Source: Chlorobiaceae bacterium (GTDB lineage: Bacteria > Bacteroidota > Chlorobiia > Chlorobiales > Chlorobiaceae). From it: a DNA stretch of 64,000 nucleotides. The stretch covers positions 62,001-126,000 of the forward strand of contig JAAXWO010000005.1 of the NCBI GenBank assembly GCA_013334965.1, in the 5' to 3' direction. Positions within the stretch are counted from its first letter, which is position 1, and each line of letters begins with the position of its first letter. The notes beneath the pieces were generated by a model that did no database searches, had not been told where the DNA came from, and saw only the letters and a program-made list of their open reading frames with translations. Below, in pieces: positions 10,660-41,852 of this stretch. The translations under genes were made by a program, and so were the position numbers.

Positions 10660-10881
10660 TCTCTCACGAGGAATTCAGCCCTCGGGACACGCTGGCCTCC
10701 TGCATTCCTGTTGCCCCGGGTTTCAACCTCCCATATTCAGGAGGGCTTCAGCCCTCCGGACATTCAAAGCTCTTACATTCCTGTTGCCCCGGGTTTCAAC
10801 CTCCCATATTCAGGAGGGCTTCAGCCCTCCGGACATTCAAAGCTCTTACATTCCTGTTGCCCCGGGTTTCAACCCGGGGGA
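10660..10881 (-). repeat. 73-bp tandem repeat array (right arm, inverted relative to the left arm)
   Basis: Units begin at 10711, 10784 and 10857, exactly 73 bases apart, and carry the reverse complement of the unit in the left array, including the hairpins GAGGGCTTCAGCCCTC and, at the outer edge, CCCGGGTTTCAACCCGGG (10861-10878). A decayed partial unit precedes them from about 10670 (GGAATTCAGCCCTCGGGACA). The outer end, AACCCGGGGGAGA, mirrors the outer start of the left array. The interval 10618-10888 holds nothing else that I can see; frames through the repeats are artefacts. Confidence 0.92.
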
Positions 10882-11907: not shown

Positions 11908-13092
11908 ATGCGATCACTGTACCTCAAACCAAAAGAGCACAAACGGCTGCTTACCGGCCACCTGTGGGTTTTCAGCAACGAGCTCAGGGAGGTACCCCGC
12001 GACATCGCCGCAGGCGAAACCGTCCGGCTCTTCACTCATGATGAACGCCTTCTCGGCACAGGGTTCTTCAACCCGCAGTCGCTGATCGCCTTCCGTCTTC
12101 TGACAAGGAACGAAGAGCAGCCCGACAGGAACTTCTTCAAAAGAAAAATCCTTGAAGCCCTCACCCTACGCGAAAAGGTCTACCCTGCTACGGAAACCAA
12201 CGCCTGGCGACTCGTGCATGGAGAATCCGACGGTCTTCCCGGACTTGTCATCGACAGATTTGACCGGGCTTTCGTCATACAGTCCTTCTCGGCAGGCATG
12301 GACAGGCACCTTCCGATCATCACGGAAGTCATCAAGGAGCTGTTCTCGCCCAAAGCGATCGTGCTGAGAAACGAATCCCCGCTCAGGGAGCTCGAAGGGC
12401 TTCCGCTTTTCAAGGAGATGATCCTTGGAGGCCAGGACGACGCGTACCAGGTCATCAATGATGACGGGGTAAGCTACAGGATCAACATCATGGAAGGACA
12501 GAAAACCGGATTTTTCCTCGACCAGCGTGAAAACAGGCGCATGATAAGGAAATATTCGGATGACGCCGACGTGCTGGATGTCTACACCAACGATGGCGGG
12601 TTCGCGCTCAACGCCATGCTGGCAGGAGCAAAATCGACCACCATGGTCGATATCTCGCAGGAAGCCTTGCAGAGAGCAGAGCAGAACGCCCGGATGAACA
12701 ATTTCGGTAACTTCTCCATCGTCGCCTCCGACGCTTTCGAAGCCCTGTCCAAACTCCATCAGGAGAACCGCAGCTTCGACCTTGTTATCCTTGATCCTCC
12801 CAGCTTCACCAAAAGCCGCAAAACAGTGCCGACAGCACTGAAAGCCTATACGAAGCTCAATCGTCTCGGGCTCCAGCTCGTCAGAAACGAAGGGTTCCTG
12901 GCAACGGCATCGTGCTCGCACCACGTATCTGAAGAGGATTTCCTCGCCACAGTGCACCTTGGAGCAATGCATGCGGGCAAACACCTCCGGCTGATCTGCC
13001 GGAACTCGCAGCCGCCGGACCATCCGGTCCTGCTTTCGATGCCCGAAACCAGTTACCTCAAGTTCGCCTGCTTCTATGTGACGAACCTTTGA
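11908..13092 (+). CDS. rlmI: 23S rRNA (cytosine-C5) methyltransferase, RlmI family
   Basis: 394 residues of the class I SAM-dependent methyltransferase family COG1092. An N-terminal PUA-type domain (residues 1-75, [20 protein letters not shown]) precedes a central domain and the catalytic domain, with the SAM-binding segment [18 protein letters not shown] (about 217-235) and motif [14 protein letters not shown] (about 292-303). The family methylates cytosine in 23S rRNA (C1962 in E. coli). GGAG lies 12 bases before the ATG. The gene is followed by a large hairpin at 13115-13155. Confidence 0.85.
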
Positions 13093-13114
13093 GCACACTC
13101 TCTCCGTTTTGACG

Positions 13115-13155
13115 CTCCTCGTCCCGACAAAAGTCTCCCCTGTCAGGACGAGGAG
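13115..13155 (+). other. Long imperfect hairpin downstream of the rRNA methyltransferase gene
   Basis: Arms 13115-13129 (CTCCTCGTCCCGACA) and 13141-13155 pair over 15 positions with one mismatch around an 11-base loop. No T-run follows, so it is not a classic terminator; it may protect the 3' end of the upstream mRNA or mark a rho-dependent end. It starts 22 bases after the stop codon. The rest of 13156-13340 is AT-richer, with no gene visible. Confidence 0.6.
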
Positions 13156-13346
13156 TATCCTCCGCCATCGTCAGCCACCTCAATTGCTGGCGATAACCGC
13201 TCCATCTAAAGCAATAAACACGTTCAGATAAACTTCTGCCATAAATACGTTTACGCATACATCACGTTTTCGCGTATTTCTAAACATACTCTCACGTCAA
13301 CTACTCGCGCACATATTGAAAAGCGAAAATTCTTTACTGCAAATAC

Positions 13347-13374
13347 TTGCTGATATTGTTTTTTGATGTATATT
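13347..13374 (+). promoter_or_regulatory. Candidate sigma-70-type promoter for a small RNA
   Basis: TTGCTG (13347-13352), 16 bases, TATATT (13369-13374), predicting a start near 13381. It lies immediately upstream of a structured stretch ending in a terminator, with no gene in between. Based only on consensus matching. Confidence 0.45.
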
Positions 13375-13380
13375 TAAAAC

Positions 13381-13463
13381 GAGTAAGTCGTTCTCAACGC
13401 CCGTTGATTACGAATCTTACATGTGCAGCATGACGTATAGGGGTACGGCGTGCTGCTTTTTTT
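13381..13463 (+). ncRNA. Candidate structured small RNA with intrinsic terminator
   Basis: About 83 bases with no open frame. The first stem-loop is GTAAG(13383-13387)/CTTAC(13416-13420), then CGT/ACG, then CAAC(13395-13398)/GTTG(13403-13406) closing a GCCC loop. The second is a 13-bp stem (13425-13437 with 13444-13456; one G-T pair and one mismatch) with loop TAGGGG, followed by seven T residues. A consensus promoter precedes it. It does not look like tmRNA, 6S, SRP RNA or a tRNA. The T-run overlaps the stop of the convergent nucleotidase gene, so it could instead be a long 3' UTR terminator. Confidence 0.5.
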
Positions 13464-14040
13464 ATGCCCGAAAAGCCCGCACCAGATCATAAACCTCTTT
13501 CCATGAAGCAGCTCGCGGAGCATCGATATGCCTGTTGGTGCTATTGCTGAAGCAGATGGTATAAAGCCCTTTCTCACGAAGCTCGAGCACATTAGATGGT
13601 GTATCTTCCACGTAAACGTCTGCGCCGACCTGGGACTTCTCTTTCATGAAACAGAGATCCCAGTAAGGAATGCCGTGACTGTCAAGCCAGTTGACTGTCT
13701 GCTGCACTGCTGCTGCATGAAAGTAGTGAACAAACAGGCGATGGGTTATGATGCGTATCCGGTAACCGTCGTCAGAAAGCATACGCAGGTATTTCCTGGC
13801 TCCCGGCACCATCTCCATGCTGCTGAAAAGCTCACGTTGCGTCACGGCAAACCTGTGCAGGCTGTCATAATGGTTCCTGTCCACGATCCCCCACTCTGCG
13901 AGACCGTATGATACTTCAACCGGAAGCTCTTCAATCGGCTTTTCGAACCACTCTGCGGCAATCTGGCGCATGCGTCCGTAAAAATCTGCGCATACCCCGT
14001 CAAGGTCTACGCCGATGACGATATCGCTGTTTTCTGGCAT
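13462..14040 (-). CDS. 5'(3')-deoxyribonucleotidase-like HAD hydrolase
   Basis: 192 residues, NT5C family within the HAD superfamily. Motif I is [12 protein letters not shown] at residues 9-20, with both catalytic Asp residues; motif II is IRIITHR (about 95-101), and a motif III/IV region, [18 protein letters not shown], lies near 140-157. The family dephosphorylates (deoxy)nucleoside monophosphates; some bacterial members have unknown substrates. It is 32 bases downstream of the thioredoxin-like gene on the same strand and convergent with the candidate small RNA. Confidence 0.75.
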
Positions 14041-14072
14041 TGCACAACCTGCTTTGAATGGGTTTCGTACTT

Positions 14073-14876
14073 TCAGAACGCACGGTCGAACGACCTGCGA
14101 TGCTTCATGGTAATTTCGTGCTCTTCACCGAGCAGCCTGAATATTGCGATACAGGCAAGCCTGGAGCCGTCGTCATCGTAATACCGGTTTTCCCGCAGCA
14201 CTCCGATGAAGCGTTCCAGTGCGCCGTCAAGGTCTCCATTGCGAAGGCTCGCGATCGCCCTGACATAAGCATCCTTCGAGACATCGTCAGGCAACCCGGT
14301 TTCGGAGCGCATCAGCAGCGCCGCAAGGGTACGGACCGCTGCGCCGAGATCGGCGTATTCACGATCACCCTCAAGCGATTCGGAAAGGGCGAGAGCCTCC
14401 GCAGGACGGTAAAAAAGGATCAACCTGATCAGCATGGCTGTTGCCGGGCTGTTCTGCGGCTCTTTCGTCACTATCCCTTCCAGAATGGCGACGGCTTCAG
14501 ACTCGTTTCCCGCTGCTGCAGCAGAAGCCGCACGATCCATATCTGCGGCATAGGGACTCGGAAGAGCTTTTTTTAGCCACTGCTCTATCTGATATTCGGA
14601 AAGGGCTCCCGTAAAGCCGTCGATCACGGAACCATTATGGAAAAGCCTGACGTCAGGTATGCTCCGTACTCCATATTGCGATGCAATTCCGGGAAAAGCT
14701 TCGGTGTTCACCTTCACAAGAACCCATCGGTCTCCTGCACGTTCTGCAAGACGCTCAAGCACCGGAGCAAGAGCCCGGCATGGCTCACACCATTCAGCCC
14801 AGAAATCGACAAGAACCGGAATGGTGGAGCTTTGTTCTATGACCTGGGTTTGAAAATCGAATGGGATGTTCTGCAT
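14073..14876 (-). CDS. Thioredoxin-fold co-chaperone of the CnoX/YbbN family
   Basis: 267 residues: an N-terminal thioredoxin domain (1-105) with the active site [14 protein letters not shown] and cis-Pro loop SIPDVRLF, then TPR-like helical repeats (about 120-230) and a C-terminal segment typical of YbbN. E. coli CnoX has lost redox activity (SxxC), whereas this copy keeps CxxC, as in several other phyla, so it may act both as holdase and oxidoreductase handing substrates to GroEL. Co-oriented with the nucleotidase gene downstream. Confidence 0.85.
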
Positions 14877-41330: not shown

Positions 41331-41575
41331 GCTGTTGTCCTGTGTTGAATTGATAAATACATCAACAGACAGGGGTTAACCATAGAGGCAGTGTGCGCAC
41401 TGACGGAATACACCTTGATACATGACGTTTCAAACGAGCTGGCAGCAGCTGTCGGAGAGCGATAATCAGCCCTGGCTTTGCCGGGCTCGATCAGAAATTC
41501 TGTCAGAAATCACTGGGATGACCGAAATATACGCCTTTGCCTGACTATAACCCGTAGTCGTGTCACTGAGCAAAG
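41331..41575 (-). promoter_or_regulatory. Structured leader between riboswitch and btuB (probable expression platform)
   Basis: Directly after the aptamer, the minus-strand RNA can form a hairpin CTTTGC/GCAAAG enclosing GACTA/TAGTC (41535-41575), and further on a strong hairpin AGCCC-GGC, AAA, GCC-A-GGGCT (41468-41487). Neither is followed by a T-run, so control may be by sequestering the btuB start or by rho rather than by an intrinsic terminator. GGAC lies shortly before the ATG. Confidence 0.5.
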
Positions 41576-41784
41576 AGCTAACTGGCAGGTCTCCTGACTA
41601 TGCGGCCAATGTGGTGCAGCCTTCCCACCCCGTCCCTGGAGGACCTGGGCAGTGACTTGCATCGACTGCTGCGTTCTGGCATGTGGCCATGCCTGTCAGC
41701 GGCAGCTTGCCGTGTACAGTTGCGGGTACAGTGTACGAATCTCACGTACTTCCCTATTCTCCGGCTTTCAAGCCGGCACCAGCT
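41576..41784 (-). promoter_or_regulatory. Cobalamin riboswitch aptamer
   Basis: On the minus strand the conserved blocks appear in order: GGTGCC and the P2 hairpin GCCGGCTTGAAAGCCGG, AGAATAGGGAAGTACGTGAG, CACTGTACCCGCAACTGTA, the peripheral stems with GCCACATGCCAG, and the closing AGTCAGGAGACCTGCC (41584-41599). The ends AGCTGG (41779-41784) and CCAGTTAGCT (41576-41585) pair as P1. Binding of adenosylcobalamin or another cobamide should reduce expression of btuB and the genes behind it. Confidence 0.96.
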
Positions 41785-41852
41785 ATCATGTGAAAGAACA
41801 TCTTTCTTTGCGGCACATAAATAACGAATTCCATCAAAAAAAACAATGGCCG

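Follow-up and report, generated by a model that had tools for sequence, protein, structure and literature searches.

We analysed a window of 64,000 nucleotides from a member of the Chlorobiaceae, in which an RlmI-like methyltransferase gene and an opposing 5'-nucleotidase gene enclose a short element composed of promoter-like hexamers, two hairpins and a terminal run of T, whose coordinates are collected in Table 1. Several other features were recorded in the same DNA. Right behind the rlmI-like gene, at 13115-13155, lies a strong 15-nt inverted repeat (93%) with no T-run, which may serve as a protein site or a weak terminator. Further off are a perfect tandem repeat at 10703-10874 (73-base unit, 2.4 copies, 100% identity) and, on the minus strand at 41567-41798, a cobalamin riboswitch scoring 83.3 bits.

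Table 1. Features of the element and its neighbouring genes (positions in the window)
Feature	Position	Strand	Remarks
RlmI-like SAM methyltransferase gene (PUA_3 + Methyltrans_SAM), upstream neighbour	11908-13092	+	
-35-like element, TTGCTG	13347-13352	+	TTG invariant in 14/14 homologues
-10-like element, TATATT	13369-13374	+	invariant in 14/14; spacer of 16 in 14/14
Proposed RNA, ~83 nt	13381-13463	+	5' end deduced from the distance to the promoter
Hairpin 1	13383-13420	+	helices in register round GCCC loop 13399-13402; apex ACGCCCGT invariant in 14/14
Linker, ATGT	13421-13424	+	within TTACATGTGCAGCATGA, a stretch invariant in 14/14
Hairpin 2, also the terminator stem	13425-13456	+	loop TAGGGG; GGGG 13440-13443 invariant in 14/14
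Terminator arms	13425-13437 and 13444-13456	+	12 pairs, one of them G-U, plus one A-G mismatch
T7 tail, intrinsic terminator	13457-13463	+	seven T invariant in 14/14
NT5C-type 5'-nucleotidase gene (HAD), opposing neighbour	13462-14040	-	RNA ends at its stop codon

The first-pass annotation had read this stretch as a candidate new small RNA, with a promoter match, a stem-loop of helices in register and a 13-bp terminator stem followed by T7, all in gene-free DNA. All of these parts were found at the positions given: the register of the helices in hairpin 1 was confirmed and the T7 is there, although 13 bp was slightly generous for a terminator stem that includes a mismatch. The stretch is free of genes except for its last 2 bases, where the T-run overlaps the nucleotidase stop codon; the same overlap of 2 bases is seen in carrier locus L015, and a gap separates the T-run from the nucleotidase gene in L016 and L023. 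The promoter match exists but is weak in the window alone: the first hexamer, TTGCTG, matches at 3 of 6 positions, and a generic scan of 12600-14400 returned 0 promoters and 0 terminators, a blank explained by that hexamer and by the mismatch in the terminator stem. It is conservation in relatives that makes the promoter credible, since both hexamers recur there as listed in Table 1 and the distance of 7 bases from TATATT to AGTA is kept in 14/14 homologues.

The distribution of the element was established by a DNA-level search across 86 family genomes, which found it in 14 of 21 Chlorobaculum genomes and in 0 of 65 genomes of the other genus. One strong copy is present per carrier genome (n = 14), and among the named carriers are Chlorobaculum parvum, C. 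thiosulfatiphilum and Chlorobaculum sp. 24CR. A covariance model built from the 14 homologues (R1) recovered the same 14 in a search of 98 genomes and found none in the 12 other genomes of the class, under the stricter filters of the larger R1 searches, by which weak matches can be lost. Over the family genomes, R1 returned the 14 known copies and eight weak extras at E 0.03-0.32. Three of these extras (L059-L061, in G018, G016 and G007) have the appearance of plain terminators once the sequence is read, and three others (L062, L064 and L065) overlap the element itself on the reverse strand, as judged on coordinates. The plasmid search gave no match to the element.

Conservation across the 14 homologues follows the outline of the proposed RNA. 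Besides the invariant stretches of Table 1, AGGGGTACG is identical in all 14 alignment rows. With columns counted without gaps from the -10 (n = 14), mean identity is 56% between the -10 and the start, 77% in the spacer and 84% in the first 40 RNA columns; it is 56% in the 27 columns just upstream of the promoter. Standard pairing holds in 98.5% of the cells of the 28 consensus pairs, and pairing falls to 18-46% when partners are slid as a control. Changes on both sides of a pair affect three pairs and six cells (A-U to G-C twice, C-G to U-A once), so that the compensatory changes which the first-pass annotation had proposed to look for in the GTAAG/CTTAC and CAAC/GTTG helices were found: the former varies to GTAAA/TTTAC and GTAGA/TTTAC, the inner helix to TGAC/GTTA. 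Among 500 shuffles, the observed value was reached once for the percentage paired, once for cells changed on both sides and five times for the covariation score, as against 57 times for the count of doubly changed pairs and 418 times for the number of pair types. Covariation is thus real but modest, because the sequence itself barely varies. The predicted fold is moreover better than that of 200 out of 200 dinucleotide shuffles, with z of -3.7 for 90 nt and -4.6 for the 83 nt of 13381-13463 (-4.58), and folding of six of the 13 homologues gave z from -4.0 to -7.9.

Such fixity bears on the reading that the element has no RNA product of its own and merely separates the convergent rlmI-like and nucleotidase genes as a conserved terminator or insulator. 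The terminator hairpin is conserved nearly letter for letter, 9 of its 13 pairs never varying, which is more than a mere terminator needs: a stem suffices for that role, yet across 14 species the letters of the loops and most of those in the stems never change, a fixed -35/-10 pair stands just upstream, and paired changes occur in the first hairpin. The element does end in a T-run and lies downstream of the rlmI-like gene, between the convergent pair, in the window and in six of nine named carrier loci; the same convergent pair nevertheless occurs without it in the Chlorobium-type loci L029-L032, L034 and L035. We therefore regard a terminator or insulator as unlikely.

The neighbours suggest two further readings, for which the counts cover the window and nine named carriers and leave out G001, G002, G015 and G019. 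An sRNA released from the 3' UTR of the rlmI-like mRNA would agree with the position of the element, which follows that gene on the same strand at a distance of about 290 bases, but the element has a conserved promoter of its own and the linkage is not constant, the rlmI-like gene not being found in the fetched flank of three of the nine loci (L015, L026 and L028, of which L028 is short); we hold this origin to be quite improbable. In the window and all nine named loci, the end of the element lies no more than about 40 bases from the 3' end of the nucleotidase gene, as would suit a regulator acting in cis by antisense pairing with the opposing mRNA. The T-run, however, overlaps the stop codon by no more than 2 bases in the window and L015 and falls short of the gene in L016 and L023, pairing in cis needs no fixed loops, and the likeness to an RNA located elsewhere, described below, would be chance, all of which makes this a very improbable role. 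A small peptide read from the ATG at 13421 could draw on the invariance of ATGTGCAGCATG in 14/14 homologues, but in nine of 14 its frame stops after MCSMM, in the other five it runs on, with letters that differ, to the end of the sequence read, and such a product is hardly to be expected.

Taken from sequence comparison, the element is thus probably the gene of a conserved regulatory-type RNA of about 83 nt in the Chlorobaculum branch of the green sulfur bacteria. Its conserved structure, compensatory changes, promoter and intrinsic terminator would place it among the independent intergenic sRNAs. Conservation in 14 homologues and the kept helices support the first-pass proposal of a new sRNA, and so does the lack of any family match in Rfam, in a gathering-score scan of the window; only chance hits were returned for the element with all families at E up to 10 and for carrier loci L013 and L004 with the limit set at 5. 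The first-pass annotation had likewise recognised no housekeeping small RNA in it.

The nearest known RNA by taxon is Chlorobi-1 (RF01696), which Rfam types as an sRNA gene and which is listed in a table of Weinberg et al. 2010 (PMC2864571). It occurs in 36 of the 86 family genomes, including 30 of 65 of the other genus, and within Chlorobaculum it was found in six of seven genomes without the element and in 0 of 14 with it (E up to 0.001). G012 and, in the other genus, 35 of 65 genomes show neither RNA, and the family as a whole can thus do without the function. Both RNAs have two hairpins in the same order and an intrinsic terminator at the end, and among the genomes searched both are confined above the cut-off to this family.

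The likeness between them resides in the loops. The majority loops of Chlorobi-1 are ACGCC[CA]GU and GUAAUGGGGGAC, and those of the element, in the same order, are the C-rich apex ACGCCCGU and the second loop GUA[AU]AGGGGUAC, with AGGGGU as the G-rich loop of hairpin 2. At the DNA level, the apex is ACGCCCGT or ACGCCAGT in Chlorobi-1 and ACGCCCGT in the element, while the second loop is TGTAATGGGGGAC in most Chlorobi-1 copies, TGTA[AT]AGGGGTAC in the element and CGTATAGGGGTAC in the window itself. The apex is therefore identical, and the second loop agrees nearly, at 10 of 12 positions in the majority form of the element (9 of 14 copies) and at 9 of 12 in the window. A pattern uniting both loop forms with 8-38 bases between them occurs at 57 places in the 98 genomes, namely the 14 element copies (one per carrier) and 43 places within RF01696 matches, and having been drawn to include both RNAs it shows rarity, not independence; its reverse has 0 matches in the same genomes. 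Permutation of the element consensus, in which the fold and the base composition of its paired and of its unpaired positions were preserved, reached the observed loop similarity in 43 of 200,000 trials (5,280 for the apex alone, 204 for loop 2 alone), as a single post hoc comparison with the consensus.

The two RNAs differ in most other respects. Their stems have little sequence in common, and hairpin 1 of the element is long and made of several helices, unlike that of Chlorobi-1. Chlorobi-1 has a separate terminator hairpin after hairpin 2, whereas hairpin 2 of the element is itself the terminator and no third hairpin follows. The element is a single strong copy near the nucleotidase gene, whereas Chlorobi-1 gives 1-5 matches per genome and lies beside mdh where checked, and the sigma-70-type promoter TTG-16-TATATT of the element contrasts with a -24/-12 promoter of sigma-54 type in Chlorobi-1.

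Specifically, TGGCAC-N5-TTGC is the -24/-12 signature of sigma-54, and it stands just upstream of 31 of 35 Chlorobi-1 copies with at least 8 of 10 matches, a level reached by 0.5% of shuffled upstream sequences; the 35 copies come from 15 loci (L067-L081) and are part of those held by the 36 genomes. All four copies that fail the motif are in Chlorobaculum genomes (L067-L069). This sigma-54-type motif, which is not part of Rfam's definition of Chlorobi-1, is found upstream of 0 of the 14 element copies. Loss of the sigma-54 gene, rpoN, as the cause of the promoter difference was ruled out by its presence in 81 of 86 family genomes and 13 of 14 carriers; it is in two pieces in G017 and was not found in G009, an assembly 88% complete. 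As a separate observation, rpoN lies on the contig of the element, some 18-20 kb off, in G000, G002, G004, G005, G015 and G019 (in G000 at G000:C9:57201-57677, about 18 kb away), probably through plain synteny.

Taken together, these data raise the question whether the element is a true derivative of Chlorobi-1, that is, a copy which moved, lost its sigma-54 promoter and its separate terminator, and turned hairpin 2 into a terminator while the original copies were lost. The nearly common loops in the same order speak for such an origin, as does the mutually exclusive distribution within the genus; that exclusion nonetheless fits one change on the tree and so has little statistical weight, a single change explaining ten carriers in the nucleotidase gene tree (25 rows; support 65/82). 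The sites held by Chlorobi-1 also favour it. Chlorobi-1 adjoins mdh in G018, G024 and G029 by Pfam match and coordinates and in G011 (L068) by eye, and in L068 and L070 its other flank is an agmatine-deiminase-type gene that by eye is a homologue of the one in L122 (PAD_porph family). The agmatine-deiminase-type gene and mdh are still found facing each other in the genome of the window (L122) and in G019 (L117), and the interval gives no Chlorobi-1 match. Several Chlorobi-1 copies stand in tandem next to mdh in L067, L068, L070 and L073.

The covariance models are less favourable to this descent. The element does not attain the RF01696 gathering score of 50 bits, which we used as the threshold of Chlorobi-1 membership. 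A model of the two-hairpin core of Chlorobi-1 from 35 copies (R2), run unfiltered over the 14 carrier loci, gave 26 matches, of which 12 fell on the element (12 of 14 loci) at E 0.93-4.4 and were outscored by unrelated matches at E 0.15 and 0.29; in the window itself, 0 of 7 R2 matches fall on the element. Conversely, R1 gave 16 matches over 14 Chlorobi-1 loci at E 0.35-7.6. Fifteen of these lie on Chlorobi-1 elements or their terminators, which is a point for descent, but they do so at E 0.37-7.6, the top-scoring match lies elsewhere, and they may be due to the terminator form that both RNAs share. The models thus match in both directions at chance level and the likeness is confined to the loops, and since no covariance-model match rises above chance, the element is not filed as Chlorobi-1. 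Moreover, the stems share little, no intermediate form was seen, and the nine Chlorobi-1 copies of the genus (three genomes) carry GCAA (seven) or GCCA (two) at the apex and in no case GCCC. Common descent of the two RNAs is possible; the full course of relocation and loss set out above we would entertain as a tentative alternative.

The reading that we prefer, with somewhat more belief than doubt, is that of an independently transcribed, lineage-specific, trans-acting sRNA whose loops work without Hfq and which possibly replaces Chlorobi-1. Transcription would start near 13381 from the sigma-70-type promoter, and the RNA is predicted to fold into the long hairpin with its C-rich apex and the G-rich-loop hairpin that would end transcription. 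The two invariant loops would be the working parts and may act in trans, either by binding a protein or by pairing with mRNAs through loop-initiated (kissing) contacts; that both are near-identical to those of Chlorobi-1 suggests the same kind of partner. The RNA would then take the place of Chlorobi-1 in a lineage that lost it. It may replace Chlorobi-1, and would work as the latter probably does.

Hfq (PF17209) was found in 0 of 21 Chlorobaculum genomes, so such an sRNA would act without it, and stable hairpin-loop sRNAs can work without Hfq. The Hfq-dependent intergenic sRNAs of Proteobacteria have their own promoter, hairpins, an intrinsic terminator with a U-run and invariant unpaired stretches; the element resembles them in promoter, hairpins, terminator and invariant unpaired stretches and differs in that no Hfq was found in its genus. 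Loop-seeded sRNAs of Gram-positive bacteria have short conserved G- or C-rich kissing loops and stable hairpins and need no Hfq, and the element is like them in its loops and hairpins.

Partners for the loops were considered within and outside the RNA. The GCCC and GGGG loops could kiss within the RNA (-6.9 kcal/mol for the isolated loops); covariation offers no test of it because both motifs are invariant in the 14 homologues, and the idea is weakened by the occurrence of GCCA or GCAA as the Chlorobi-1 apex loop. With an assumed 16S tail, the G-rich loop is predicted to pair only weakly with the anti-Shine-Dalgarno sequence, at -6.1 or -7.5 for three homologues and at -8.4 for Chlorobi-1. The search for targets by full complementarity to the loop yielded none: beyond the gene itself, an exact complement of its entire length was found only once each in G000, G019 and G018; in G000 it lies within an unrelated 387-aa open frame and in G019 on the strand opposite a 273-aa frame that encodes a different protein.

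A broader scenario, which we put forward with reservation as possible rather than probable, is the rewiring of a regulon: the sigma-54-driven and often multicopy Chlorobi-1 would have been replaced by a single sigma-70-driven RNA elsewhere in the genome, with only the target-contacting loops kept. The same guarded standing applies to its placement in the ancestor of this Chlorobaculum branch, where promoter, stems, terminator, copy number and site would all have changed.

A differential RNA-seq study of C. tepidum has reportedly been published. Hardly any literature on sRNAs of green sulfur bacteria was found, and the literature searched, beyond whose reach much work on C. tepidum lies, holds no description of the element RNA; nor is there a mention of it in the available parts of PMC9029176 and PMC12316311. 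For Chlorobi-1, the accessible part of PMC2864571, the sole paper found that names the RNA of RF01696, yielded no role. The element is very probably a new sRNA gene, with no whole-RNA counterpart in Rfam. With so little literature and with no Hfq found in the genus, a conserved sRNA here would be a clean test case for Hfq-free regulation. The common loops are the parts to mutate in both the element RNA and Chlorobi-1, and the sigma-54-type promoters provide a regulatory lead for the latter. If the rewiring is true, the loops would be the functional core of both RNAs, and control would have shifted from an activator-dependent to a housekeeping promoter.
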